Shown here: piece by piece, positions 2,054 to 22,670 of the stretch
Layout of the letters: each line of letters begins with the position of its first letter
Position numbering within the stretch: position 1 is the first letter of the stretch
From: a virus
IMG/VR virus record: IMGVR_UViG_3300020395_000083
Span: 1-27,095 of that record
Length of the DNA: 27,095 nt
Direction: 5' to 3' (one strand)
The notes under the pieces: generated by a model
What the model was told of the DNA's origin: nothing
Seen by the model: the letters and a program-made list of their open reading frames with translations, nothing else
The model's database searches: none
Made by a program: the position numbers and the translations under genes

Positions 2054-3148
2054 CTAGTTCAACTTGATAATGCCACCTGATGTAGAGATCTTAACATCAC
2101 CACCTGTAGAATCAATTTCTACAGATTTACCAGAAATGGATGTTGTCTCCTTTCCTTTTAGAGTCAAGTCTCCAGATGTAGATTCTATTGTAGCATCTCC
2201 AGTGCTCTCAAAGGTCATATCACCGTCTTTTGTCAGGATATCAATATCTCCTTTCTTTGCTTCAGCGTATATACCTTCAGTATCCGTTATCATTTCTATG
2301 CCTTTCTTTGCCTTTATTTTAAGGTCATCTAAGAATGCCCTAATATCAACAGAAGCAGAAGCATTTTTTATAAGTTTTGTGCCACCTTGCTTTCCAGCAG
2401 TCCAATGTTGATAATTACCAGCGACCCAAAGCTTATAATCTCCAAGGATCTTATGGTTTAAATGACCTGGAGTAAGAACTGTTTGAGTAGAACGAGGATC
2501 ATAAGAAACAGTTGTGTTTTCTTTAACACCTGCTTTTAAATCTTGTCCAAAGATGACATCCATCTTATTATCAATTATATTCGTTTCATCTGTTGCTCCT
2601 GTTACTATATCACCTCCTGTAATCATTCTAATACCATTAGAACCTTCTAATATTAATTGATCTATGGCCTTGATATGAATTATATTTGCTTCAATATATC
2701 TTTGTCCACCATTTGTTACCTCTGTATAATTACCAGATTCAATTTTTACATTTAATGCATCCTTATCAGTCTTAGCTTCACCATTTTTATCTTTTTTTGA
2801 AGCATCACCATCTTCTTGGTTACAAGATATATGAAGAGTACCTTCATTTTTCCACAATCCTCCATGTGAAGATATATTCAATCTTCCACTACCATTACCA
2901 TATTCTTTATCGTGTCTACCACAAATAATTCCGATACCTCCAATATCATCCATCTTAATCCTAGCACCACCCTCTGCTGGACCCCATATCCTCAAGAGAG
3001 TCGAAGTTCTATCTTTGCCAGGTAAAAGATATTCATTAATTTCAGATCTACTAAAGTGTCCTTTCCATGCAGTAGATATTTTAGGAGTATCCTCAAGAGT
3101 TTGGGTCTCATCAGGAGTTATAGGATCTGCAACTTTTGTAATAGACAT
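2054..3148 (-). CDS. Baseplate needle-like protein (gp5 C-terminal beta-helix type)
   Basis: 364 residues from the ATG at 3146-3148, which overlaps the previous stop as TAATG; a TTG three codons upstream is less likely. The N-terminal third includes RIWGPAEGGARIKMDDIGG, as in phage spike proteins. From about residue 260 to the end there are short alternating repeats such as GDIDILTKDGDMTFESTGD and GDVKISTSGG. These are typical of the triple-stranded beta-helix that forms the T4 gp5 membrane-piercing needle and the VgrG spike. It follows the gp5-like hub gene directly, so the needle seems to be encoded apart from the OB-fold hub. No lysozyme residues are seen. The role is inferred from repeats and position. 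Confidence 0.65.
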   Translation of the reverse strand: MSITKVADPITPDETQTLEDTPKISTAWKGHFSRSEINEYLLPGKDRTSTLLRIWGPAEGGARIKMDDIGGIGIICGRHDKEYGNGSGRLNISSHGGLWKNEGTLHISCNQEDGDASKKDKNGEAKTDKDALNVKIESGNYTEVTNGGQRYIEANIIHIKAIDQLILEGSNGIRMITGGDIVTGATDETNIIDNKMDVIFGQDLKAGVKENTTVSYDPRSTQTVLTPGHLNHKILGDYKLWVAGNYQHWTAGKQGGTKLIKNASASVDIRAFLDDLKIKAKKGIEMITDTEGIYAEAKKGDIDILTKDGDMTFESTGDATIESTSGDLTLKGKETTSISGKSVEIDSTGGDVKISTSGGIIKLN

Positions 3149-5994
3149 TATGGACAATCAACGTAGCGGCCAGTACCAATCTTAGTAGCACCAACTGTGG
3201 CCAGTTCATTAGTACTTAGACATTTCAGTGATGGTATTAATTTACCACCTGCTCCTGAACCAATAACTCTAACTTCAGGATATTCATCAAATGTTAATTC
3301 TCTTCTCAATACTCTTGCACCTATAAGGAATCCATCTTCACTAATAATTGCTTCTGCAACATCTGTTTCTCCATTAACATAAACAACTGGTTTCTCTGTA
3401 TATCCTCTACCTGGTCTAATAACAGTAAAGGAATCTATTATACAACGAACACCATTCGACTCAGGATCATTTATCTTATATCCATAACCACCTTTCTTGA
3501 CACGAATTTCTGTAAGATACCCATTCTCATCTAACAATCCACTAGCAATTGCTCCTATTCCTTCACCAGAAACAAAGACATATGGTGGTTCTTCCCAAGG
3601 AGATCCAGTTTGATCTATTGGAATATCAATAATACTACCATTACCATCAGTTATTACATTACCTACAGTAGGTAAATTAAATTCTTGATATTGATTCTCT
3701 GCTGTTTCTCCTTCACCATCATCAAAATCAGAAAGACTGTTATCACCAGCAGTAATATAGACATCAACTGAAGCACCAGTACCATTAAGAGTAAATGTTA
3801 ATGTTTCTACCTCTTCAACTTGACTATCTTCTGCTATACCAACTGTTACGAAAGATTTCCCATCATTAACTACACAAGATCCATATAATTCTCCACCAAT
3901 AATATCTTGAGAAGTAATATTAGGTCCACTAAGAGTCCAGTAAAGAACAGTACCATTTTCTACATTAGTAGTAGAAATAGTATATACTACAAATTCATCT
4001 TCAGGTACAGTAGTTCTATTAGCAGCAACAGCATATGTTTGTGATGTTCCTACTTCTTCTATCTCTTCATCAACAGGCCAATCAACAAGATCTATTAATG
4101 TACCAGGATCTGATGGTTTTGGTGTATAAGGATCACCCTTCTCTTTAATCCGTTTCTCTATAATAGTACACTTACCAAGATTTTTAACAAAATTAATTCC
4201 TATCTTACTACCTGCTCCAGGAGTACTCTTCTTAAGATATACAAAGAAATCTTCTTCTAATTCCGATTCAACATTATACAAAGTTCTTATTTCAATTTCT
4301 TTAGTAGTCTCATAAGGAGCAAATCCAACAATACCATCATCTGCAATATAATCTACACCAGGAGTAGCAGTACCTTGCTCTTTAAGTGTCTTCCATGTAC
4401 AAGATGATGCTATATCTGTATATCCACTTCTAGTAACTGTAAATTTAGCAAAATCTCCTTCAGTTACCGTAATATCATCTATAGAATATCTAATTTTTCG
4501 TTTTTCTGGTGTAGATCCACCTCCATTTGGTAATGGTAATCCACCAACAAATCCAACAGTAGTAACTGTTAATGGTTTACCAGTATATGCTTCATCACAA
4601 ACATACTGTGTATAATCTTCTCCAGTTGAAGGAGATAAATTATCAATACTATCCAATAAATTATCTAACCAATTTTTATCTTCTTCCTCTGCATCTGTTT
4701 CATCGACTTTAACACCATCAACACATACTTTAGAATACTGCTGACATGTTCTATCAGGTCCAGTACAAGTAATACCTAAGATACCGAGAATATAGTTTAT
4801 AGCACCACCAATGATGTTAAGTGGAGCTGCAATTGCCCCAAGAATCGCCTGTAATGGTCCTAATATTGAATTTAATAGATTATTCAATAAATCAAACAAT
4901 TTGGAAAGAATACCATTGACTAATGAATCAATCTGACAAGCAACAGAACGATAAATTTGCTCAACATAACTCATCAAAACATTAGTTAACCATTCCATCA
5001 AACGATCACCAATATCTGCCATTGAACATCCTAATTCCTTCAGTAGTTTATTAAAGAACTTAGTAACTGGAGTTAATGCATTACCTTTATCATCAGGACG
5101 CATTATTGCTTCAGTAAGCCATTTTACTGCTTCCTTTAATTTACCTATTATAAATCCCTTAATCTTAGCGATAAACTTATTAATAACCGCCTTTACCTTC
5201 TTAATATACTTTCTAGCAACACCCTTAGCATCAAAAAGTTTTCCTGTTACTCTATCAATAAGATATGTACCTATCTTTCCATTATTATTCTGAACTTCTT
5301 CTAGAAATTCTGCAATATAAAATTTTAAATCCTTCTTAAATTCTACCTTATCACATTTCTCTGCTACACTCTGACACCAATTCTCGTCTTTAATTACAGT
5401 TAAAGTATTACGGCCAGGCTTTGTCTCTGCATTAACGTCATCACTACCAGTACATAATTTACCTGTATCTAATCCACAACCAGTTCTATTAAGATTTTGA
5501 AAATCTGCCTTAGCAATTTCTTCACCATCTTTATTCTCTTTAGATGGAGTGCCATCACTACCATCAATCATCTCATCACTAGGAATTGCCGTAGTGAATG
5601 GATAATCGTCAGGTCTCGAATATACTACTTTACCTGTAGCACCTGGGGTCTGTCCAATAGACCCCATAATTATTGGTTTTTGTCTATCTGGATCAAGATA
5701 GAATCCAATCACCCAACATCCCTTCTGTAACTGTGGATGTGCTCCAGCAGTATTACCAGGCATAAAAGGAACATTAACTGGCATCATTACCTGACACCAA
5801 GGAAGTTCTGATGTTGGTAAAGTTTCAGGATCTTTAGGATGATCTCCTACTATCCTAACTTTATATCTAGCACCACCCTTAACGTTCTTATCCTCATGGT
5901 GTAAGGCAGATTCCTCCACCTGACCAACCCACCAGTTGAATCCGTCATTACCAACTCTATTGGTTGGTATCAGTTGTGATGCTAATTGATCCAT
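3148..5994 (-). CDS. gp5: gp5-like baseplate hub protein with Calx-beta-type domains
   Basis: 948 residues. Residues 15-125 (NWWVGQVEE through KGCWVIGFYLDP and IIMGSIGQ) match the N-terminal OB-fold of T4 gp5. About 225-420 is a long Lys- and Leu-rich helical region with amphipathic and hydrophobic stretches and several Cys. About 500-615 (DDITVTEGDFAKFTVTR, later GVDYIADDG) looks like a Calx-beta domain, and 650-750 like a second, weaker copy. From 800 on come Gly-rich repeats of the type LTEIRVKKGGYGY and RPGRGYTEKPVVYV, common in marine phage tail proteins. No T4-type lysozyme domain is visible. It probably sits at the baseplate centre between the gp27-like hub and the needle. Confidence 0.75.
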   Translation of the reverse strand: MDQLASQLIPTNRVGNDGFNWWVGQVEESALHHEDKNVKGGARYKVRIVGDHPKDPETLPTSELPWCQVMMPVNVPFMPGNTAGAHPQLQKGCWVIGFYLDPDRQKPIIMGSIGQTPGATGKVVYSRPDDYPFTTAIPSDEMIDGSDGTPSKENKDGEEIAKADFQNLNRTGCGLDTGKLCTGSDDVNAETKPGRNTLTVIKDENWCQSVAEKCDKVEFKKDLKFYIAEFLEEVQNNNGKIGTYLIDRVTGKLFDAKGVARKYIKKVKAVINKFIAKIKGFIIGKLKEAVKWLTEAIMRPDDKGNALTPVTKFFNKLLKELGCSMADIGDRLMEWLTNVLMSYVEQIYRSVACQIDSLVNGILSKLFDLLNNLLNSILGPLQAILGAIAAPLNIIGGAINYILGILGITCTGPDRTCQQYSKVCVDGVKVDETDAEEEDKNWLDNLLDSIDNLSPSTGEDYTQYVCDEAYTGKPLTVTTVGFVGGLPLPNGGGSTPEKRKIRYSIDDITVTEGDFAKFTVTRSGYTDIASSCTWKTLKEQGTATPGVDYIADDGIVGFAPYETTKEIEIRTLYNVESELEEDFFVYLKKSTPGAGSKIGINFVKNLGKCTIIEKRIKEKGDPYTPKPSDPGTLIDLVDWPVDEEIEEVGTSQTYAVAANRTTVPEDEFVVYTISTTNVENGTVLYWTLSGPNITSQDIIGGELYGSCVVNDGKSFVTVGIAEDSQVEEVETLTFTLNGTGASVDVYITAGDNSLSDFDDGEGETAENQYQEFNLPTVGNVITDGNGSIIDIPIDQTGSPWEEPPYVFVSGEGIGAIASGLLDENGYLTEIRVKKGGYGYKINDPESNGVRCIIDSFTVIRPGRGYTEKPVVYVNGETDVAEAIISEDGFLIGARVLRRELTFDEYPEVRVIGSGAGGKLIPSLKCLSTNELATVGATKIGTGRYVDCP

Positions 5995-6289: not shown

Positions 6290-7738
6290 TTATTGGCCAT
6301 GGGTAGATATTCTATCCTTCATACCAAAAGAATCACGCATAAGTCTTAAGGTTGTGATAAAACGACCATTTGCATTTTCAAGTCTAGCGTATTCATGTGT
6401 AACCTCTTCAACGAGATACACTCCACTACTCTCTTTATCAAATGGTTCATCTTTTGTATCCTCTGCTGGCAATTTATTTGCCAATCTAAGATCAACTAAA
6501 TCTCCTGCACAAATAGCAGAATTACCAGCGATCTGAACTGTAGCATATTGATTCTTCAAAAACTCATACCTTGTTAAAGCCTGAGTTGCATAATATTTCT
6601 GCCAATCAGCAAATTCAGTGGGATTTTTCGCACTTTCATCTTCAGGATTAGCTGGCCAACCTCCATTATACCACGATTCATGGTCAATGTAAACGGACAT
6701 AATTCTTGATGGTACTCCTGTTAAATCATTTTGGTCATCTGAAACTAACTCAGCACTCTCTTGTCCTCCCAAATGAGACATATTATCATAGTTATCAGCA
6801 GCATTGTAAGTATATTCTTCATATTCACCTGTACTATGATTAAAGAATGCGATCATAGTACCATACTGACCCATTCTTAAGGATTCCAACACATCTAACT
6901 GTGATCCAAAACTAGCTTGTAATATATTAGACCTTTCATCTACTTCTGGTACATCATCTGTATTAGCAGTTCTTTCTATATACGGACCCCATGCAGAACT
7001 TGTATAAGAATCTGATCTAAATTTAGATCCCTCTTCTGCAAGTAAAGTATCTACAGAGAAGAAATTATATCCTCTTCTATTCTCCCAAAAGAAATATCCA
7101 GCACTACCTTTAATAGTTTCAGTTGTCTCTTTAGTAACTCTACCCCTTCTATTCTTAACTACCGTAGTAGTTGTTCCTTTCTCACCAACACTCTTCAAAC
7201 AAACCTCTGTAATAAGATCAAATGGTCTCCTTCTTGATGGAAGCATATTTAGTTTAAACCTAGAAACCTCTGTAAAAACATCCTTCTCTGTTTTTATAAA
7301 ATTTTCCATGAGATCAACTACAATAGAATCACTATGTCCTCTAAGTGGTTTACTTACTCTAATAGTCTCATTTTTAATGGCCTCAGCAGAAATTAAACCC
7401 AATGTATATACTTGTTTCTGTCCTTTAGCAAATCTATTATTAATACTCCAGACTTTCATTTTATATACTATTGGATCCTCTTCAGAACTTGTTTTAAGTG
7501 TAATCCATATATTTTCTGTGCCTTGTATAGGTAATCCACTTAAAAGACCACCACTATCAAGAATGGTCATAGTACCTGCAACAAATGGAGATGTAATACT
7601 TTCAACATAAGAAAAAGTTATTACAGTACCAGTCATGTCAATAGCACCAGGACCAGTTGGCGTTCCAGCTGGCCATATCCTTACGTTCTCAACCTTGAAG
7701 TCTAAACTATTCTGAAATTGTTCATTGACTTCACTCAT
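6290..7738 (-). CDS. gp27-like baseplate hub protein
   Basis: 482 residues. The N-terminal part (FKVENVRIWPAG, TGTVITFSYVESI, GTMTILDSGGLL, ENIWITLKT) and the later QVYTLGLISAEAI fit the tail-hub fold of T4 gp27 and its relatives, which forms the trimeric cup under the tail tube and holds gp5. The C-terminus (GVYLVEEVTHEY then FITTLRLMRDSFG) also fits this family. The ATG overlaps the stop of the tape-measure candidate as TAATG. The order gp26-gp51-tape measure-this gene-gp5 supports the hub role. The family call comes from fold-like patterns and synteny, not from a strict motif. Confidence 0.6.
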   Translation of the reverse strand: MSEVNEQFQNSLDFKVENVRIWPAGTPTGPGAIDMTGTVITFSYVESITSPFVAGTMTILDSGGLLSGLPIQGTENIWITLKTSSEEDPIVYKMKVWSINNRFAKGQKQVYTLGLISAEAIKNETIRVSKPLRGHSDSIVVDLMENFIKTEKDVFTEVSRFKLNMLPSRRRPFDLITEVCLKSVGEKGTTTTVVKNRRGRVTKETTETIKGSAGYFFWENRRGYNFFSVDTLLAEEGSKFRSDSYTSSAWGPYIERTANTDDVPEVDERSNILQASFGSQLDVLESLRMGQYGTMIAFFNHSTGEYEEYTYNAADNYDNMSHLGGQESAELVSDDQNDLTGVPSRIMSVYIDHESWYNGGWPANPEDESAKNPTEFADWQKYYATQALTRYEFLKNQYATVQIAGNSAICAGDLVDLRLANKLPAEDTKDEPFDKESSGVYLVEEVTHEYARLENANGRFITTLRLMRDSFGMKDRISTHGQ

Positions 7739-9834
7739 TATCTAATACTCCTTATTCTTAAATTGGCAAATACTTCAGTACCAGTATCTGCCATACTAAT
7801 ACCATTTAAGTATCCTGATGGTGTGGTTCCAGGTTGTCCACTACCTTCACCTGTCATTACATTATTAACAACTATAGGATTATTTCCTGCCATTACAAGA
7901 GCTTGATCAGCTGATAACTGATTAAGATTATTTGCTGTTTCATTTCCAGTGGTTGTTACACCACCATTACCCGATCCAGTATTATTATTTGTTCCAGTAT
8001 TATTTCCGCTTTCTGGAAGAATTACTTGTTCTTTAATAAGATAATCTAATTGACCCTGCCAGTTATTCTGCCAATCATCACCAACAGCAGATTTCATTGC
8101 AGCAAAATCTGAACCTTCCCAACCAAATAATCCACCATCCATATTACCAACAAAACCAGAAGCATCATTGATTTTATTTGTCCAATTAATTGCGTCTTCT
8201 CTTGAAACTCCTTGACTCTGTAAATATCTAAGTACTTGTTCTGGATCAACTGTTGGTTGATTTTCTCTTTTCCATCCCAACCATCTTGGACCCCAATATC
8301 CATCACCTATCTCAGATCCTATAATTGCTCTAGTTGTTGCTCCTATTCCTCCACCATGTACAACTTCATCTTCTGCTTTTAATTGTCTTCCTACTTCAGT
8401 ATTTTCATTAAAGAGTCTTAAAAAACTCGGTCCCCAATATCCGTCACCAACTTTACTTCCTATCAATCCACGGAGTAATTGTGAAGTTGCTTGTTGAAAT
8501 TGTGAAGGTGGTTTATTCTCTTGATTACCAGCACCATCACCGCCACCACCCCAGAAACCTGGATATTTCCTTTGGTTCCAATATAATCCTAATCCAATAA
8601 CTTTAGAATACTCCTGTTCCTTCTGAATCATATGATCAAGGAAATACTCAGGTATTTTCTTTAATTGTGGTTCATTAGAAACTACTTCATCTGGATGGAG
8701 TATTGCTCCAAATCCACCTTGTCCATCTATTCCTCCCGTAGGTTGCTTATTAACTTTACCACCAGTATTCATACTAGCAGCATTATTTGACATATCTCTA
8801 GCTAATATTGCAGTATCAAGGGCTACTGCAAGAGGAATTCCTGCACCAGTCAGTGATAATGCTCCAGAACCTATCTCAGCAATACCTCCCAACCAATCAC
8901 CTTTAGCAAATTTTTGCAATCCAAATATTAAACCCAATCCTAAACCAAGACCAGGAACTGCTTTTGCTGTTACTTTTGATGCACCTTTAAGTGCTGCTTT
9001 TCCACCTGCTTTGGCAACTCCACGTTTGGCAGCTCTACCAAGACCATGTTTCATTATAGAACCAGACTTTCCACTCTTCCCAAGACCAGATAGAGACTTA
9101 CCTGCTTGTTTTCCTAATGCAGTACCTCCAAGAGCACTCATCAAAGCCATGGTCGTATCACCTGATCCACCACCTTTTCCACCACCCATAGCGAGGCCCA
9201 TGGCCATATTAACAAAATCACCACCACCTCCACCAGAAGGAGAACCAGAACCACCCTTAAACATTTTCTGTTCTAAGAATGCTCGTGATCTAGCCATCAT
9301 CACATCATCATGTTTCTCTTTTCTGAGAGACATGTGAACCATAGAGTATTTGTGCTCTTTGACTTCTCTAACTAAACTATCTACACCATCAGCAATTCTT
9401 TGTAAAGTGTCAGATGGATCATTCTGACCAATAGGCCCCATAGACGTAGGGCTATATATCCCATCTTGAGATGCACCAGCATAATGTACTATAGTCTCAT
9501 CTGCTTTTATATGAGGATCTCTTTTAGGTTGTAAACTTGCTAATCCAGATCCAGAGAAATTAGTTATTGCTCCACCTTTCTTAGATGGAAGTCCAAACAT
9601 TGAAGTCTGTCCAGCAATTTGTACCGCTTCTTCAACTTCTTCAGAAGTTACATCTATAACTGATACATCAACTGGAAATATGGACTTATCCTGAGTTAGA
9701 CCAAGTGCCGTTTTCTTTTTTCTTTCTCCAACAGTTTTAGCTGCTTTTTTTAATTTGTCCCAGGCCCAATTATGCAAGTCTTTATAACCCTTGCTTTCTG
9801 GTAATTTACCAATACCTTGGAATCCATGTGCCAT
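7738..9834 (-). CDS. Probable tail tape-measure protein
   Basis: 698 residues lying directly after the gp26/gp51-like chaperone pair, the place where tape measures sit in long-tailed phages. It has Gly-rich low-complexity stretches (196-226), a basic Ala/Gly/Lys region (240-292), a hydrophobic region with two likely membrane-inserting segments (293-346), and FGAILHPDEVV at 375-385, similar to motifs in phage tail-tip and tape-measure proteins. Two copies of a GDGYWGP motif occur (459-471 and 506-518). The end is Asn, Thr and Gly rich. T4 gp29 has 590 residues. The ATG overlaps the previous TAA as TAATG. It could instead be another hub-associated structural protein. Confidence 0.5.
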   Translation of the reverse strand: MAHGFQGIGKLPESKGYKDLHNWAWDKLKKAAKTVGERKKKTALGLTQDKSIFPVDVSVIDVTSEEVEEAVQIAGQTSMFGLPSKKGGAITNFSGSGLASLQPKRDPHIKADETIVHYAGASQDGIYSPTSMGPIGQNDPSDTLQRIADGVDSLVREVKEHKYSMVHMSLRKEKHDDVMMARSRAFLEQKMFKGGSGSPSGGGGGDFVNMAMGLAMGGGKGGGSGDTTMALMSALGGTALGKQAGKSLSGLGKSGKSGSIMKHGLGRAAKRGVAKAGGKAALKGASKVTAKAVPGLGLGLGLIFGLQKFAKGDWLGGIAEIGSGALSLTGAGIPLAVALDTAILARDMSNNAASMNTGGKVNKQPTGGIDGQGGFGAILHPDEVVSNEPQLKKIPEYFLDHMIQKEQEYSKVIGLGLYWNQRKYPGFWGGGGDGAGNQENKPPSQFQQATSQLLRGLIGSKVGDGYWGPSFLRLFNENTEVGRQLKAEDEVVHGGGIGATTRAIIGSEIGDGYWGPRWLGWKRENQPTVDPEQVLRYLQSQGVSREDAINWTNKINDASGFVGNMDGGLFGWEGSDFAAMKSAVGDDWQNNWQGQLDYLIKEQVILPESGNNTGTNNNTGSGNGGVTTTGNETANNLNQLSADQALVMAGNNPIVVNNVMTGEGSGQPGTTPSGYLNGISMADTGTEVFANLRIRSIR

Positions 9835-9992
9835 TATTTGTTCTTAGCCTGTTCTTGTTTTACTTTCTCAAGATGTTGCATCAATAAAGTGGTATAAACT
9901 TGCCTTTCCCAAGGCATCATATTTTCAATCTCACTTAAGCTATATTTATGGTATTGCATCAAAGCGAAATTGGTCTTATAATAACCCTCCAA
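9834..9992 (-). CDS. gp51-like baseplate hub assembly protein, possible -1 frameshift extension of gp26
   Basis: A short ORF in the -1 frame after gp26, in the position of T4 gene 51. It contains YYKTNFALMQYHKYSLSE and then ENMMPWERQVYTTLLMQ, the compact pattern of phage tail assembly chaperone C-parts. It is open from the gp26 slippery site to the TAA at 9834-9836, which overlaps the tape-measure ATG as TAATG. No ATG stands before the conserved part; candidates are TTG at 9990-9992 (used here) and the ATG at 9957-9959, neither with a well-placed ribosome site. Translation by frameshift from gp26 would give a fusion of about 296 residues. Confidence 0.65.
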   Translation of the reverse strand: MEGYYKTNFALMQYHKYSLSEIENMMPWERQVYTTLLMQHLEKVKQEQAKNK

Positions 9993-10022
9993 CGATGTGT
10001 GAAAGAGGGCTATCCGAAAAAA
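9985..10022 (-). promoter_or_regulatory. Candidate -1 programmed ribosomal frameshift signal
   Basis: On the minus strand gp26 ends AAT TTT TTC GGA TAG. T TTT TTC (10022-10016) is a canonical X XXY YYZ slippery heptamer. Six bases later CCCTC (10009-10005) pairs with GAGGG (9989-9985) across a 15-base loop, with one extra G-U pair possible. The -1 frame is open through the gp51-like ORF. Confidence 0.6.
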
Positions 10023-10723
10023 TTCTGTAACCCATTGATTACGTATTCAGATTCTACACCAGTTTCAGGATTCTTAATATTAAACCTATGCTCTAACTTA
10101 GGTATAGTATCAAAGAATTTTGTAATATCCTTAAATTGATTGGTAGTCAATCCTTCAATAAATTCCTTAAATTCTTTCTTACTAGTAGTAGATGAATCAT
10201 ATACTTCTTCTCCATCATATATCTGATCTACACATCCAGCAATAACATCAATATATCCTTCAGGATCAAGTTGTTTCCCTATAATTGAAGATTTAACAAA
10301 TTCTGGGAATGTAGGATATCTAAAAATAATACCCAAGTCATCAGAAAGCTTAATCTTAGGATCATGGCCTTCTGGTTTATCTATTTTAACGTCAAATAAA
10401 CTAAATGTATATTTCACCTCTGTTTTATTATCATCTTTACAGGTGATAGTCATATCTACTTCTTCACCAACAGATACAGCACGAATATTCAAAAACAAAT
10501 ATTCTAGATCAAAAGTTGGTAATTGATCAATCTTAATTCTGCTCTGAACGCAATTTTTCAATAATTCTTTAACTGCTGATGTTATTGCAGCTTCTTCTTC
10601 TGTGTCCATAGCCATTAAAAGAAGTTTTTCCTCTTTTACGACAAATGGACGATATTTAATATTTTTCCCATTTGAGGGTAATTCCAGTTCATAAGTCGGG
10701 AGTGCGACTTTTGGTAATGCCAT
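10010..10723 (-). CDS. gp26: gp26-like baseplate hub / tail assembly chaperone
   Basis: 237 residues beginning MALPKVALPTYELELPSNGK, then FVVKEEKLLLMAM near residue 30, the typical start of the T4 gp26 baseplate family (T4 gp26 has 208 residues). The middle has LPTFDLEYLFLNIRA, CKDDNKTEVKYTF, LGIIFRYPTF and EFKEFIEGLTTNQF. By position it corresponds to the chaperone made before the tape measure. It ends LQNFFG just after a slippery run of six T, so part of the product may be extended into the gp51-like frame. A TATAAATA late promoter lies 20 bases before the ATG. Confidence 0.82.
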   Translation of the reverse strand: MALPKVALPTYELELPSNGKNIKYRPFVVKEEKLLLMAMDTEEEAAITSAVKELLKNCVQSRIKIDQLPTFDLEYLFLNIRAVSVGEEVDMTITCKDDNKTEVKYTFSLFDVKIDKPEGHDPKIKLSDDLGIIFRYPTFPEFVKSSIIGKQLDPEGYIDVIAGCVDQIYDGEEVYDSSTTSKKEFKEFIEGLTTNQFKDITKFFDTIPKLEHRFNIKNPETGVESEYVINGLQNFFG

Positions 10724-10828: not shown

Positions 10829-11506
10829 CTACCAGCGTCCATCAAATCCAAGAGAGAATCCACCACCGAAAGCCATGTCTCTTGCATCTTCAGTCTCACC
10901 CATGTTTGAAATATCGCCTTTAACAAATCTAATGTCGTGATCCATCGTGTAATGACGCATGTATGAGAACTGAGCAGTTACTTGAACTACTTGATTAGTA
11001 CCATACTGTAAAGGAACAGCGTCAATAGCATATGGATATGCTCTTTCTAAAATATATGTTATTGGTTGTCTTTGTACAGCAGACTTTGGACCTGGTTCTG
11101 CTTTAATTATGGCAATATCAGAAACATACTCATCCATGTATGATAATCTTACTTCCCTATTTTGTACTTTATCAATAGATCCACGTTGTTGATTAAACAT
11201 AAGATCTTGCCACTCATTTAAGAACTTAAGTACAGTCATATTAGCATCACAAAGGAATCCAAGTTGAATTTCCGTATAGACCCTAGTATGCGGATATTTT
11301 ACCTGTCCTGATCCAACATACATTCCATTAATACTACTTTCTGCTGTATTAATGTTAGGTAATTGTGCTTCATTACAGTAAAATTCTATAGTCTCATCAA
11401 GGTCAAAAGATCCTACACTAGAATCTAATATCCTTACAATAAAACTATTACTAGACGCTAAACCACCGTCTTTTGATACTCTTTGTATAAAACGACTAAC
11501 AGACAC
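10829..11506 (-). CDS. Tail-tube-like protein (gp54/gp19-type baseplate tube initiator)
   Basis: 225 residues. The layout SNSFIVRILDSS, EFYCNEAQLPNINTAESSING, VKYPHTRVYTEIQLGFLC, then LKFLNEWQDLMF is that of T4 tail-tube fold proteins (gp19, gp48, gp54): an N-x-F opening, a CNEAQLP segment, a Y-P-x-x-x-x-Y-x-E strand and an F-x-x-W helix. It sits at the divergent start of the baseplate module, opposite gp4. The start is GTG at 11504-11506. As gp48 is present elsewhere, the likely role is gp54-like tube initiation, but a tube paralogue is possible. Confidence 0.55.
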   Translation of the reverse strand: MSVSRFIQRVSKDGGLASSNSFIVRILDSSVGSFDLDETIEFYCNEAQLPNINTAESSINGMYVGSGQVKYPHTRVYTEIQLGFLCDANMTVLKFLNEWQDLMFNQQRGSIDKVQNREVRLSYMDEYVSDIAIIKAEPGPKSAVQRQPITYILERAYPYAIDAVPLQYGTNQVVQVTAQFSYMRHYTMDHDIRFVKGDISNMGETEDARDMAFGGGFSLGFDGRW

Positions 11507-15307: not shown

Positions 15308-15517
15308 TTAGAATATACCTGGTATAACTGCTCCAAAGAGGATGTAGTTGTGTACCAGTGCAAAGAATCCAATCATCGCTAGGCGGCCATTGGTTTGCTC
15401 TGCGTTAGTCCAGTAATCAACATCAAGCACTTCTACTTGAGGTTCATGAGCAAACATATTCTGCTTGCCATACTCGGTAGTAGTGTAACGTTTCATACTG
15501 TTCGTAGATGAAGTCAT
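15308..15517 (-). CDS. hli: High-light-inducible protein (69 aa)
   Basis: 69 residues. After a polar front of 38 residues, AEQTNGRLAMIGFFALVHNY carries the full Hli motif (E-Q-T-N-G-R-L-A-M-I-G-F), followed by ILFGAVIPGIF. It would sit in the thylakoid membrane as a single chlorophyll-binding helix near photosystem II. It is first in a row of three hli-type genes and has a strong promoter about 30 bases upstream. Confidence 0.92.
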   Translation of the reverse strand: MTSSTNSMKRYTTTEYGKQNMFAHEPQVEVLDVDYWTNAEQTNGRLAMIGFFALVHNYILFGAVIPGIF

Positions 15518-19155: not shown

Positions 19156-19819
19156 TGTATTCGTCTATGTATTGTAGGAGAGAGTTTAGATACTCTTTCT
19201 TAACAGGACGAACCTCAACTTGAGTCTCTCCATCTTCACAAACAACTATAGTAACAAGTTGTTCGGCATGGAGATCATATCTTTCCTTGAGCATACATGC
19301 ATATGCACACTCTTGGACAAAATAATCATAAAGATATTTAACCCTCTTTGGTTTAGCCGAAGTCTTAAAATCGATTATGGATAACCGTCCATCGAATTCT
19401 GCAATACAATCTACACGACCTGCTAGTCTTAAAACGTCCGAGTAAAGTGCTGCTTCCTGTAGGTATATTTTATTTATGCGGTCTAAAGTATCTTTAGAAT
19501 GCTTAAACATCACTACTGGTAAGGGTTGATCGCTATGATCTTCTAGATTTAATTCGTTATTAATATAATCTTCTACTATACTATGGTACTTAGTACCACG
19601 TGTAGTAGATCTTTTTGATATGTTATTTGCTTTCTCTTCACCTACTTGCCTCCTCCACTTCATTATACCCTTCATCTTAGTAGGATTGCTACCTATTACA
19701 GTGGTACAAGATGGATATTTATTACCCTCTGGTGTGAAGTAGACACGTTTGCCTGTCTCCTCATCAGTTCTTGCCTCCATCTCAATGGGAGTTAACAAAT
19801 CAAGGTGTATGAAAGTCAA
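19142..19819 (-). CDS. PD-(D/E)xK exonuclease (RecB/MGME1-like)
   Basis: 225 residues. VYFTPEGNKYPSCTTVIG at the front is typical of the MGME1-like phage exonuclease family. TTRGTKYHSIVEDYI (72-86) gives the conserved R-G-x-x-x-H-x-x-x-E. The catalytic core is AGRVDCIAEFDG-RLSIIDFKTS with D137, D150 and K152, followed by a helix ending near Q169-E170. It probably trims or degrades DNA in recombination or host breakdown. The start is TTG at 19817-19819, sharing TTGA with the phoH stop; the next ATG (19780) would lose conserved residues. Confidence 0.82.
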   Translation of the reverse strand: MTFIHLDLLTPIEMEARTDEETGKRVYFTPEGNKYPSCTTVIGSNPTKMKGIMKWRRQVGEEKANNISKRSTTRGTKYHSIVEDYINNELNLEDHSDQPLPVVMFKHSKDTLDRINKIYLQEAALYSDVLRLAGRVDCIAEFDGRLSIIDFKTSAKPKRVKYLYDYFVQECAYACMLKERYDLHAEQLVTIVVCEDGETQVEVRPVKKEYLNSLLQYIDEYNGKK

Positions 19820-20559
19820 GTGTTACCTCCTGTGTTTATCTTACTGATAAGGTAAGACTTAACAAGACCAGATCTAATGATGTCCTCAATACCAAACTCA
19901 ACAGATGAAAACTCATCCATATCCTCAATGATACGTTGGAAGTCTAGGATACCATCCTTCTCATTAGTTCTAACTAGATCAGTCTGACTAACATCACCAG
20001 CAAATATAATCTTAGAGTCTTGTCCTACCCTAGTGATTATACTATCTAACTCATGGAAATTCAAGTTCTGTGACTCATCAACCAATACAATAGCATTGTC
20101 TAGTGTAGTACCACGTAAGAATGAAGTAGACCAGAAAGAGATAGTCTCTTGGTGCTTGAGGTTTTCATACAACATATCAAACGCTGCATCATCAGGCATC
20201 TTAAACATATGTCTTACCATGTTCTTGTATGGTATCTGATATAGTAATGCCTTATCATCATGGTCACCAGGTAGGAAACCAATCTCTCTTGTAGATACTA
20301 GAGACCTAACAATATAAACCTTATCGTATGGTGTGTTAGTTGTAAACACATCCTTCAATGCAAGATACAAAGCAATGAATGTCTTACCTGTACCTGCTAC
20401 ACCATAGGTGAAAATATTCTTACCCTTAGCATACTCCTCAAACAATAGATTTTGATTGTCTGTTAGTGGAGTAATCTCTCTGAAGAAGTTCTCATTAATG
20501 GGTCTCTTCCTCTTCGCTCTCCTCTTAGTAGGTTGACCATTAGCTTTAGTAGTAGCCAT
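19816..20559 (-). CDS. phoH: PhoH-like P-loop ATPase
   Basis: 247 residues from the ATG at 20557-20559, which overlaps the previous stop as TAATG; a TTG two codons earlier is less likely. Walker A is GVAGTGKT (53-60), and Walker B is AIVLVDESQNLNF with DESQN at 161-165. VYIVRSLVSTREIGFLPGD and KIIFAGDVSQTDL are classical PhoH segments. It is a cytoplasmic ATPase near-universal in cyanophages; in hosts it belongs to the phosphate-starvation regulon, but its phage role is unsettled. It is followed by the exonuclease gene. Confidence 0.95.
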   Translation of the reverse strand: MATTKANGQPTKRRAKRKRPINENFFREITPLTDNQNLLFEEYAKGKNIFTYGVAGTGKTFIALYLALKDVFTTNTPYDKVYIVRSLVSTREIGFLPGDHDDKALLYQIPYKNMVRHMFKMPDDAAFDMLYENLKHQETISFWSTSFLRGTTLDNAIVLVDESQNLNFHELDSIITRVGQDSKIIFAGDVSQTDLVRTNEKDGILDFQRIIEDMDEFSSVEFGIEDIIRSGLVKSYLISKINTGGNT

Positions 20560-20804
20560 TACCAACCCCTCACTCGTGAACCTGGTTGCTTCTGAACTTT
20601 ATTCTTCATAATATCTGCCCATCCTGGATGTGTTTTAGTCATTTTATCACGCCATTCACCCACCTCACCTACACCAGCACAACCCTTAGACCAGTCTTTA
20701 TCCCAGTCAGGATTCTCTTGCTTCCATTCTTCATACTGTTTCATAGACATGACTAACTCTTTAGTTTCTCCTGTCTCTTTATGTTTAAGTGGGTAGGTTG
20801 GCAT
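20559..20804 (-). CDS. Conserved small protein, MPTY-type (81 aa)
   Basis: 81 residues starting MPTYPLKHKETGETKELVMS, with KQYEEWKQENPDWDKDW and a C-terminus KQPGSRVRGW. The MPTY opening and layout recall FmdB-like small proteins of marine phages, but the zinc cysteines are missing (one Cys only). Its TAA overlaps the phoH ATG and its ATG overlaps the ho1 stop, so it is co-translated with both. The function is unknown. Confidence 0.7.
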   Translation of the reverse strand: MPTYPLKHKETGETKELVMSMKQYEEWKQENPDWDKDWSKGCAGVGEVGEWRDKMTKTHPGWADIMKNKVQKQPGSRVRGW

Positions 20805-21499
20805 TAATCATTTCCTCCTTTAAGTTTAGACTTTACAAAGTTACATGCTAGGTTTAAAAAAGACTTACTTGCATCCCCTTGCAATTCATCAAACATATAC
20901 ATGTTGAGTCTGAATGCATAGTTAGCCTCAGCAATCAATTCATTTATATCTTGCTCAGTTAATTCAATCTCATCTAAAACTGCTTTGTAATTAGTTTTAA
21001 ATGCTTTAGCATCTTCTATCCTAGGGAAATCATAGAAGTGTAGACCTTCACCCTTAGGTGGTTGTAAAGCATTCTGTGCTATACCCTTAAGGATTTGACC
21101 TCCAGATAGATCACCAATATATCTAGTATAATGATGGGCAATCAACAGATAGGGATTACTCTCTGCAATCTCATTAAGTCTGTAACAGTATGTATTACAT
21201 GCTTCAGATGGTGTCTGTTGCTCCCTCCACATAGGACCATAATAATATCTAAGATCCTGTTGTAAAGCAGCAGTACGAAACAAATCCACATTCCACTGCT
21301 GTAATACCTTTGCTCTAGGGTCAGTAGTCTTTGCTACTAACTGCTCCATTGTATCATAGACATACCAAAAGTCTGTAATTAACTTACGGTACTCTTCAGG
21401 ATCTAATACACCCTTAAGAAACTGTGCAACGAACTTAGTATTCTCTGCTGCTGAGTGAGACTTCTTAGTTCCTTCTTTTAATCGAGCAGTAAAACTCAT
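20804..21499 (-). CDS. ho1: Heme oxygenase
   Basis: 231 residues. LKEGTKKSHSAAENTKFV with proximal heme ligand H15, and AHHYTRYIGDLSGGQILKG with the distal-helix motif GDLSGGQ (129-135), are diagnostic. It opens heme with ferredoxin electrons and oxygen to biliverdin IXa, iron and CO. Biliverdin is the substrate of pebS and pcyA further downstream in this window. It is coupled by TAATG overlaps on both sides, to the 2OG oxygenase and the MPTY protein. Confidence 0.96.
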   Translation of the reverse strand: MSFTARLKEGTKKSHSAAENTKFVAQFLKGVLDPEEYRKLITDFWYVYDTMEQLVAKTTDPRAKVLQQWNVDLFRTAALQQDLRYYYGPMWREQQTPSEACNTYCYRLNEIAESNPYLLIAHHYTRYIGDLSGGQILKGIAQNALQPPKGEGLHFYDFPRIEDAKAFKTNYKAVLDEIELTEQDINELIAEANYAFRLNMYMFDELQGDASKSFLNLACNFVKSKLKGGND

Positions 21500-22041
21500 T
21501 AAGATACCCTCCTAAATTTATTGTTACCTGAATAGTAACGATGTAGATTGAAATTTATATTATACCTAGCACTAGCATTGGTTGTGGTAGATGAGTTGTG
21601 TTTAACAGACCCATCAAAAAAGACCATGCGGTTAGCCACTGAATCTATTTTACTACCATCTTGCATTCTTGTAAAGCCATCACAAGTATTTAATGAGAAA
21701 ATACCAGCAATATGCTTGAAAGGATAGTCAATGTGTGGTTGATGTTCCTTTAATGTTTCTGTGTGTGGGTATAGGTTTGCTTTCACTCGTATAAAAACTG
21801 TGAAGACCTCCTCACTATTAAATGCTGGTGCAAATATTTTGTATATGTTTTCAAAGAATTGACTCCTAGGTACATCATCTTTGTATAACAAATGAGTACC
21901 ATAACTGTTCCAAGGTTCCGACTTCTCACCTACGTAAGCACTAACCCCTTCTCTAAATCTATAAGTAAACTTCTTAGAAAGTTCTACCAGTTCATTAAAA
22001 GTATATGGATCTAAAAATCTATCAACAATTTTTACATCCAT
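21499..22041 (-). CDS. 2OG-Fe(II) oxygenase
   Basis: 180 residues. The iron ligands are H103-x-D105 in HQPHIDYPF and H148 in GSVKHNSS; R159 in ASARYNINFN is the likely 2-oxoglutarate anchor. NRMVFFDGSVKH is the usual strand before the distal His. Such phage enzymes hydroxylate proteins or other targets, but the substrate is not shown. It overlaps thyX by 10 bases and couples to ho1. One of four such genes in the window. Confidence 0.8.
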   Translation of the reverse strand: MDVKIVDRFLDPYTFNELVELSKKFTYRFREGVSAYVGEKSEPWNSYGTHLLYKDDVPRSQFFENIYKIFAPAFNSEEVFTVFIRVKANLYPHTETLKEHQPHIDYPFKHIAGIFSLNTCDGFTRMQDGSKIDSVANRMVFFDGSVKHNSSTTTNASARYNINFNLHRYYSGNNKFRRVS

Positions 22042-22670
22042 TCCAATGCCTCTGATACTATAGGGAACTGTTCTTTAAAGACTGATCTAACCATCTCTGC
22101 TATCTCCATGTGTTCCTTCTGGGTTCCATGTGCAGAACGTAGGTCTATGTAATGTACCCATGAACGTACACTACCAGTCATATAAATTCTGGTTGGTGTT
22201 GCTAACGGGAGAACAAATCTCGCACACTCCTTCGCAATACCATTAGCGAGGAGTTCATTGTATAGATCCATCGCTTCAACAAAGTGTTCTGCGATCTTCT
22301 CTTGGAGGTCTTGCTTCTTATTCTTTGGTACATCATCAGTACTATTCTGTCTATTCTTAGTGTCTTGGTGTCTAAGATCAAACATAGGAATCTCATCTGC
22401 TAACAGATTAGTAGCAGCATATCTCTGTGAGAATTCTTGAAATGTAAATGATCTATGTCTTAGTATCTGTGCAGCAAGACCACGTGTAGTCTCAATCTCC
22501 ACAGTCATGTGTGCTTGTTCAAAGACCGACCAGTGTTGATGCTTTATGCAGTAACCTAGTAATCCAGCTACTTTTGGATTGTCTTGATTGTTCGGGTTGC
22601 TGACTCTCGCCACGTAACCCATCGTCTCCTCCGCTTTGGGAGTGACTGTCACTAGTTTCACTTGTTGCAT
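22032..22670 (-). CDS. thyX: Flavin-dependent thymidylate synthase
   Basis: 212 residues. The ThyX motif R-H-R-x(7)-S-Q-R is RHRSFTFQEFSQR at 71-83. The region HWSVFEQAHMTVEIETTRG before it and TGSVRSWVHYIDLR near 165-178 are also typical. It makes dTMP from dUMP with FAD, methylene-tetrahydrofolate and NADPH for phage DNA synthesis. The start ATG lies inside the ORF of the preceding basic protein, which overlaps it by 152 bases in another frame. Confidence 0.95.
   Translation of the reverse strand: MQQVKLVTVTPKAEETMGYVARVSNPNNQDNPKVAGLLGYCIKHQHWSVFEQAHMTVEIETTRGLAAQILRHRSFTFQEFSQRYAATNLLADEIPMFDLRHQDTKNRQNSTDDVPKNKKQDLQEKIAEHFVEAMDLYNELLANGIAKECARFVLPLATPTRIYMTGSVRSWVHYIDLRSAHGTQKEHMEIAEMVRSVFKEQFPIVSEALEWM

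Follow-up and report, generated by a model that had tools for sequence, protein, structure and literature searches.

A predicted −1 ribosomal frameshift joining gp26 to a gp51-like reading frame at the tail assembly chaperone locus of T4-like phages

The gp26 gene of the window (the whole stretch of DNA that was analysed, 27,095 nucleotides from a marine cyanobacterial virus, positions 1 to 27,095 of IMG/VR record IMGVR_UViG_3300020395_000083) is very probably joined to the gp51-like frame behind it by −1 programmed ribosomal frameshifting, which would yield a short and a long tail assembly chaperone as in the lambda G/GT system. A sequence-only reading of this DNA had proposed such a fusion, and it is supported by a phased slippery heptamer, protein-level constraint on the −1 frame, a downstream RNA structure, the lack of a conserved start codon and homology to T4 gp51. 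The features of the junction are as follows.

10010–10723, minus strand: gp26, short tail assembly chaperone (TAC-N), 237 residues, the 0-frame product (Pfam PF12322 T4_baseplate, E 4.5e-72; PHROG 150)
10016–10022, minus strand: slippery heptamer T TTT TTC, one codon 5' of the gp26 stop (direct reading)
10010–10012, minus strand: gp26 stop TAG, bypassed by the predicted −1 shift
9982–10012, minus strand: predicted stimulatory stem-loop of 9 bp (arms 10012–10004 and 9990–9982)
10009–10005 and 9989–9985, minus strand: stem core, CCCTC and GAGGG (direct reading)
9837–10022, minus strand: −1 frame extension of 62 codons, FFRIALFHTSLEGYY...KNK, gp51-like C-terminal domain (TAC-C), open in relatives and matching PHROG 634 and the C-terminus of PHROG 150
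9834–9836, minus strand: −1 frame stop TAA, overlapping the ATG of the next gene (TAATG)

On the minus strand, gp26 ends in ...AAT TTT TTC GGA TAG, as read directly and checked by script. The heptamer previously noted at this end is in phase with the gp26 frame, as a simultaneous −1 slip from TTT TTC to TTT TTT demands, and six bases (GGATAG) lie between it and CCCTC. From the slip, the −1 frame runs open into the gp51-like protein for 62 codons, 58 of them beyond the gp26 stop, so that the predicted fusion comprises 234 + 62 = 296 residues; this fusion length agrees with the sequence-only reading.

In the proposed mechanism, the gp26 gene would give the short tail assembly chaperone as its 0-frame product. 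A ribosome positioned on TTT TTC, with Phe-tRNAs in both sites, would encounter an RNA stem 3–6 bases ahead, and in a minority of cases the two tRNAs would re-pair on TTT TTT one base back, such that the gp26 stop is bypassed. Reading of 60 more codons after the slip would complete a 296-residue long chaperone composed of gp26 followed by the gp51-like helical domain. If the system behaves like lambda G/GT, the tape measure would be coated by many copies of the short form and few of the long one, which would also recruit tube subunits. That the slippage is ribosomal, how efficient it is, and that the products act as chaperones are points that we infer.

Relatives were gathered from IMG/VR using the gp26 of the window and five other gp26 queries, and were supplemented with GenBank phages. 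The 216 loci counted are those with a readable junction, excluding Ackermannviridae and Tevenvirinae. All 216 contain a phased T TTT TT(C/T/A), located zero to two codons 5' of the stop, and the −1 frame is intact in all 212 complete relatives, with a length of 58–71 codons; the comparison of related junctions that had been suggested earlier showed both the slippery run and the open frame. When the sequences were clustered at <60% gp26 identity, the phased heptamer was present in 23 of 23 clusters, which are not fully independent, compared with an expectation of about 0.45 per cluster (0.72 × 0.63) for the T-TTT choice from the pooled codon usage of the same genes. Other Phe-Phe pairs in these genes occur in a slippery context in only 1 of 81 cases. 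The conservation of the heptamer among relatives is not due to chance. Isolates carrying it include the cyanophages S-PM2, S-SM1, ME01 and S-CRM01, as well as Aeromonas phage Aeh1, Vibrio phage D486, Pseudomonas phage Milchi, Stenotrophomonas phages Mendera and DLP6, Agrobacterium phage OLIVR5 and a Nitratidesulfovibrio phage.

Starting at the slippery site, the −1 frame is genuine coding sequence, as judged from its substitution pattern. Among 57 near relatives, the mean minor-base fractions at the three codon positions of −1 codons 3–10 are 0.07, 0.04 and 0.27, a pattern that matches the undisputed part of gp51. The signal starts right after the slip, upstream of any common start codon, and the residues following FF are alike even in remote phages (FFR or FFL, then I/V/L). 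In 42 of the 216 loci, a −1 stop lies immediately 5' of TTT TTT, and ordinary translation from upstream therefore cannot enter the −1 frame; in most others, the stop is found within 8 codons. A C-terminal domain that is open in the −1 frame and has no conserved start of its own is the arrangement that characterizes G/GT-type loci.

These observations bear on the alternative shown in databases, in which gp51 is a small gene in its own right whose translation begins behind the gp26 stop, either by reinitiation or at a coupled start. A separate gp51 coding sequence is indeed annotated in S-PM2, S-SM1, S-RSM4, S-CRM01 and others, an ATG occurs 3–6 codons past the slip in some loci, and in Ackermannviridae such as VP-1 and Limestonevirus the heptamer is missing and a TAATG overlap is present. 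However, the annotated starts conflict among relatives, the stretch is unannotated in ACG-2014e and S-WAM1, and protein-level conservation of the −1 frame extends 5' of any common start. A search for a shared start codon found only scattered candidates: the first ATG, GTG or TTG of the −1 frame is dispersed over codon indices 3 to 35 (0 being the first TTT) among the relatives, with no position held in common. In the window, a TTG that is not conserved as a start forms codon 11 of the extension and the first ATG is codon 22, within the conserved part. The earlier statement that no ATG precedes the conserved part is thus correct, with the qualification that a TTG does occur at codon 11. Independent initiation would also leave the conservation of heptamer and stem without explanation, and we regard it as very improbable.

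The absence of a Shine-Dalgarno (SD) sequence before gp51 was considered as a further argument for frameshifting and was dropped. It is weak evidence because gp26 itself is preceded by an SD sequence at just 65 of 208 loci, and the gene that follows frequently lacks one as well. Upstream of the slippery site, SD-like 4-mers occur in 42 of 70 loci, mostly 8–11 bases 5' of the site (12% in phase-matched controls), with Glu-Gly codons at this position as a confounder; no such element is present in the window itself. The arrangement resembles that of dnaX.

The hairpin of CCCTC and GAGGG six bases past the heptamer, noted in the sequence-only reading, is present, but the stem extends to 9 bp rather than 5 bp, and begins three to six bases from the heptamer, with the core at 6. 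The 48-base stretch of the window folds with −12.1 kcal/mol (z −2.9), a stability matched by just 7 of 1000 synonymous recodings of the −1 peptide (p 0.007). For 69 representatives, 48-base segments starting 10 bases past the first slippery T gave a mean z of −2.67, compared with −0.61 to +0.29 for flanking 48-base segments lying 20 to 180 bases to either side. When synonymous recodings of the −1 peptide served as the control, the relatives gave a mean z of −2.16 at this position, and −0.11 and −0.64 for the next two stretches. The stem varies in sequence by lineage, with a perfect stem of 13 bp or longer in S-PM2 and one of 10 bp in ME01, its registers shift among subtypes, and some lineages (Aeh1-like, Milchi-like) have a weak stem or none. 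Among near relatives, no compensatory changes altering both sides of the stem were found, only one-sided changes.

The identical fusion could also arise if RNA polymerase slipped on the T run and produced mRNA with more or fewer U residues. The site is a T run, which reaches 8 in TTT TTT TAG variants. Transcriptional slippage usually requires longer runs; the run here is usually just 6 and its phase is fixed to the codons. Moreover, polymerase slippage has no need of a conserved structured element at ribosomal spacing, and it is about as improbable an explanation as independent initiation. The junction as a relic frameshift without a product, arising by chance or decay, is scarcely credible: the frameshift has been lost in Tevenvirinae, but purifying selection on the −1 frame and the presence of the heptamer in all of the deep clusters contradict such a reading.

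The proteins encoded at the locus are consistent with the frameshift. The AlphaFold model of gp26 has a pLDDT of 86.8, and its top PDB match is the HK97 tail assembly chaperone 2ob9, with a probability of 0.92 but a non-significant E of 0.52. The extension matches PHROG 634 (baseplate hub assembly catalyst, E 1.2e-27) and the C-terminal end of PHROG 150 (E 1.4e-7), whose N-terminal part matches gp26, so that PHROG 150 spans both. Searches with the extension returned only chance matches in Pfam and, for its 60 residues, no match by fold; a sequence search of the PDB with gp26 and the extension gave no credible match. In a search of nine sequences, a profile of the fusion matched T4 gp26 (2e-26), T4 gp51 (1.5e-10) and Jiaodavirus gp51 (4.6e-16). 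T4 gp26 aligns to the first part of the fusion only, whereas the gp51 proteins of T4 and Jiaodavirus align to both parts across the junction. Therefore, T4 gp51 is an uninterrupted counterpart of the predicted frameshift product, and T4 gp26, by the same alignment, the counterpart of the short product.

The genes surrounding the junction are arranged in the order tube, chaperone, 698-residue protein and hub.

10829–11506, minus strand: tail tube protein gene, upstream of gp26 (Pfam PF23849 Phage_TTP_2, E 2.1e-77)
7738–9834, minus strand: gene for a 698-residue protein in the tape-measure position (assigned by gene order; weak PHROG matches only)
6290–7738, minus strand: tail/hub protein gene, downstream of the 698-residue gene (PHROG 350 'tail protein', E 1.8e-113)

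The gene following the junction had been called the tape measure, and its place and size fit that designation. Similarity to T4 gp29 does not support it: none was detected between the 698-residue protein and gp29 by sequence comparison, and the gene was not retained as a gp29 relative. Elsewhere in the window, a gp5-like protein (Gp5_OB) of 948 residues (3148–5994, minus strand) contains an inserted Calx-beta domain. Host-like genes typical of cyanophages were recognized by eye, all on the minus strand: heme oxygenase (20804–21499), a PhoH-like ATPase (19816–20565), a ThyX-like thymidylate synthase (22032–22670) and a high-light-inducible protein (15308–15517).

The frameshift-type junction was seen in Kyanoviridae, Pootjesviridae, Menderavirus, and the Straboviridae Aeh1 and Schizotequatrovirus. 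Kuttervirus, Taipeivirus and other Ackermannviridae have no heptamer. In VP-1, K355 (unclassified, of the same type) and Limestonevirus, a TAATG overlap provides an ATG for the C-terminal domain (loci L237, L088 and L238), which suggests that phages of the Ackermannviridae type make this domain as a separate protein. In all 17 Kuttervirus and Taipeivirus loci (L083, L086 and L207–L221), ATT occupies the place where ATG is expected and no start is evident; their junction, ATT TTC ATT TAA TTTTTG, has TAATT where Limestonevirus has TAATG, and the domain may be translated from the ATT, by a hop or by another shift. Tevenvirinae encode full-length gp51 as a separate gene. Pseudoalteromonas phage XG4 (L233) combines a slippery T TTT TTA with a TAATG overlap and may be an intermediate. 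It is about as likely as not that the gp26–gp51 frameshift is the older state of T4-like phages as a whole, with a full-length gene of its own taking its place in Tevenvirinae and a stop-start overlap doing so in Ackermannviridae. If this is true, three routes to the chaperone C-terminal domain exist within one lineage, with frameshifting as the commonest.

In the isolate records examined at the junction, gp51 is either a separate gene with inconsistent starts or unannotated, and none are joined. The gp51-like stretch is an unannotated gap at 1514–1694 in ACG-2014e (L243) and at 1514–1703 in S-WAM1 (L247). These records suggest that gp51 is misannotated or missing in hundreds of public cyanophage records. 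Frameshifting at this site would provide a simple account of how most oceanic T4-like phages produce two tail assembly chaperones, and would allow the genetics of T4 gp26 and gp51 to be interpreted with the G/GT model, which is better understood.

Vladimirov, Gautam and Davidson (Virology 566:9–15, 2022, doi 10.1016/j.virol.2021.11.003) reportedly identified tail assembly chaperone genes of T4-like phages, in a paper whose title is said to propose a non-frameshift mechanism. A passage of PMC12846349 credits that work with poly-T slippery sequences in the TAC-N genes of T4-like phages; frameshifting in such genes is thus probably already published in general, and the earlier view that a gp26–gp51 frameshift is undescribed is doubtful. 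No paper on a cyanophage gp26–gp51 frameshift was found in the open-access literature. Separate short and long genes in place of frameshifting are mentioned for some T4-like phages in part of PMC10885494, and a 2016 review (PMC5009743) lists T4 as an exception to G-T frameshifting. Lambda G/GT and other frameshifted tail assembly chaperones are attributed to Levin 1993 and Xu 2004 in passages of PMC5009743 and PMC12859696.

The locus shares with lambda G/GT a −1 shift, here predicted, where the gene for the short chaperone ends, a C-terminal domain with no start of its own and a position between the tail tube and the tape-measure position. It differs in its protein family (T4_baseplate, PF12322), its slippery heptamer and its downstream stem. 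The lambda heptamer is G GGA AAG. T4 gp26 is homologous to the short product and T4 gp51 to the whole predicted fusion; unlike T4, where gp26 and gp51 are two separate, divergently transcribed genes, a single locus with a predicted frameshift is found here. The chaperone frameshift of Vandenendeviridae and Andersonviridae uses GTTTTT (phage Adele, PMC12846349). Shared with the present locus are a poly-T −1 signal where TAC-N ends, an open −1 frame 5' of the tape-measure position and routine misannotation; the phage families differ. The kind of mechanism is not new and is familiar from long-tailed phages; what the present analysis adds is its breadth, the stem, the missing annotation, and the lineage split between frameshift, separate full-length gene and stop-start overlap.
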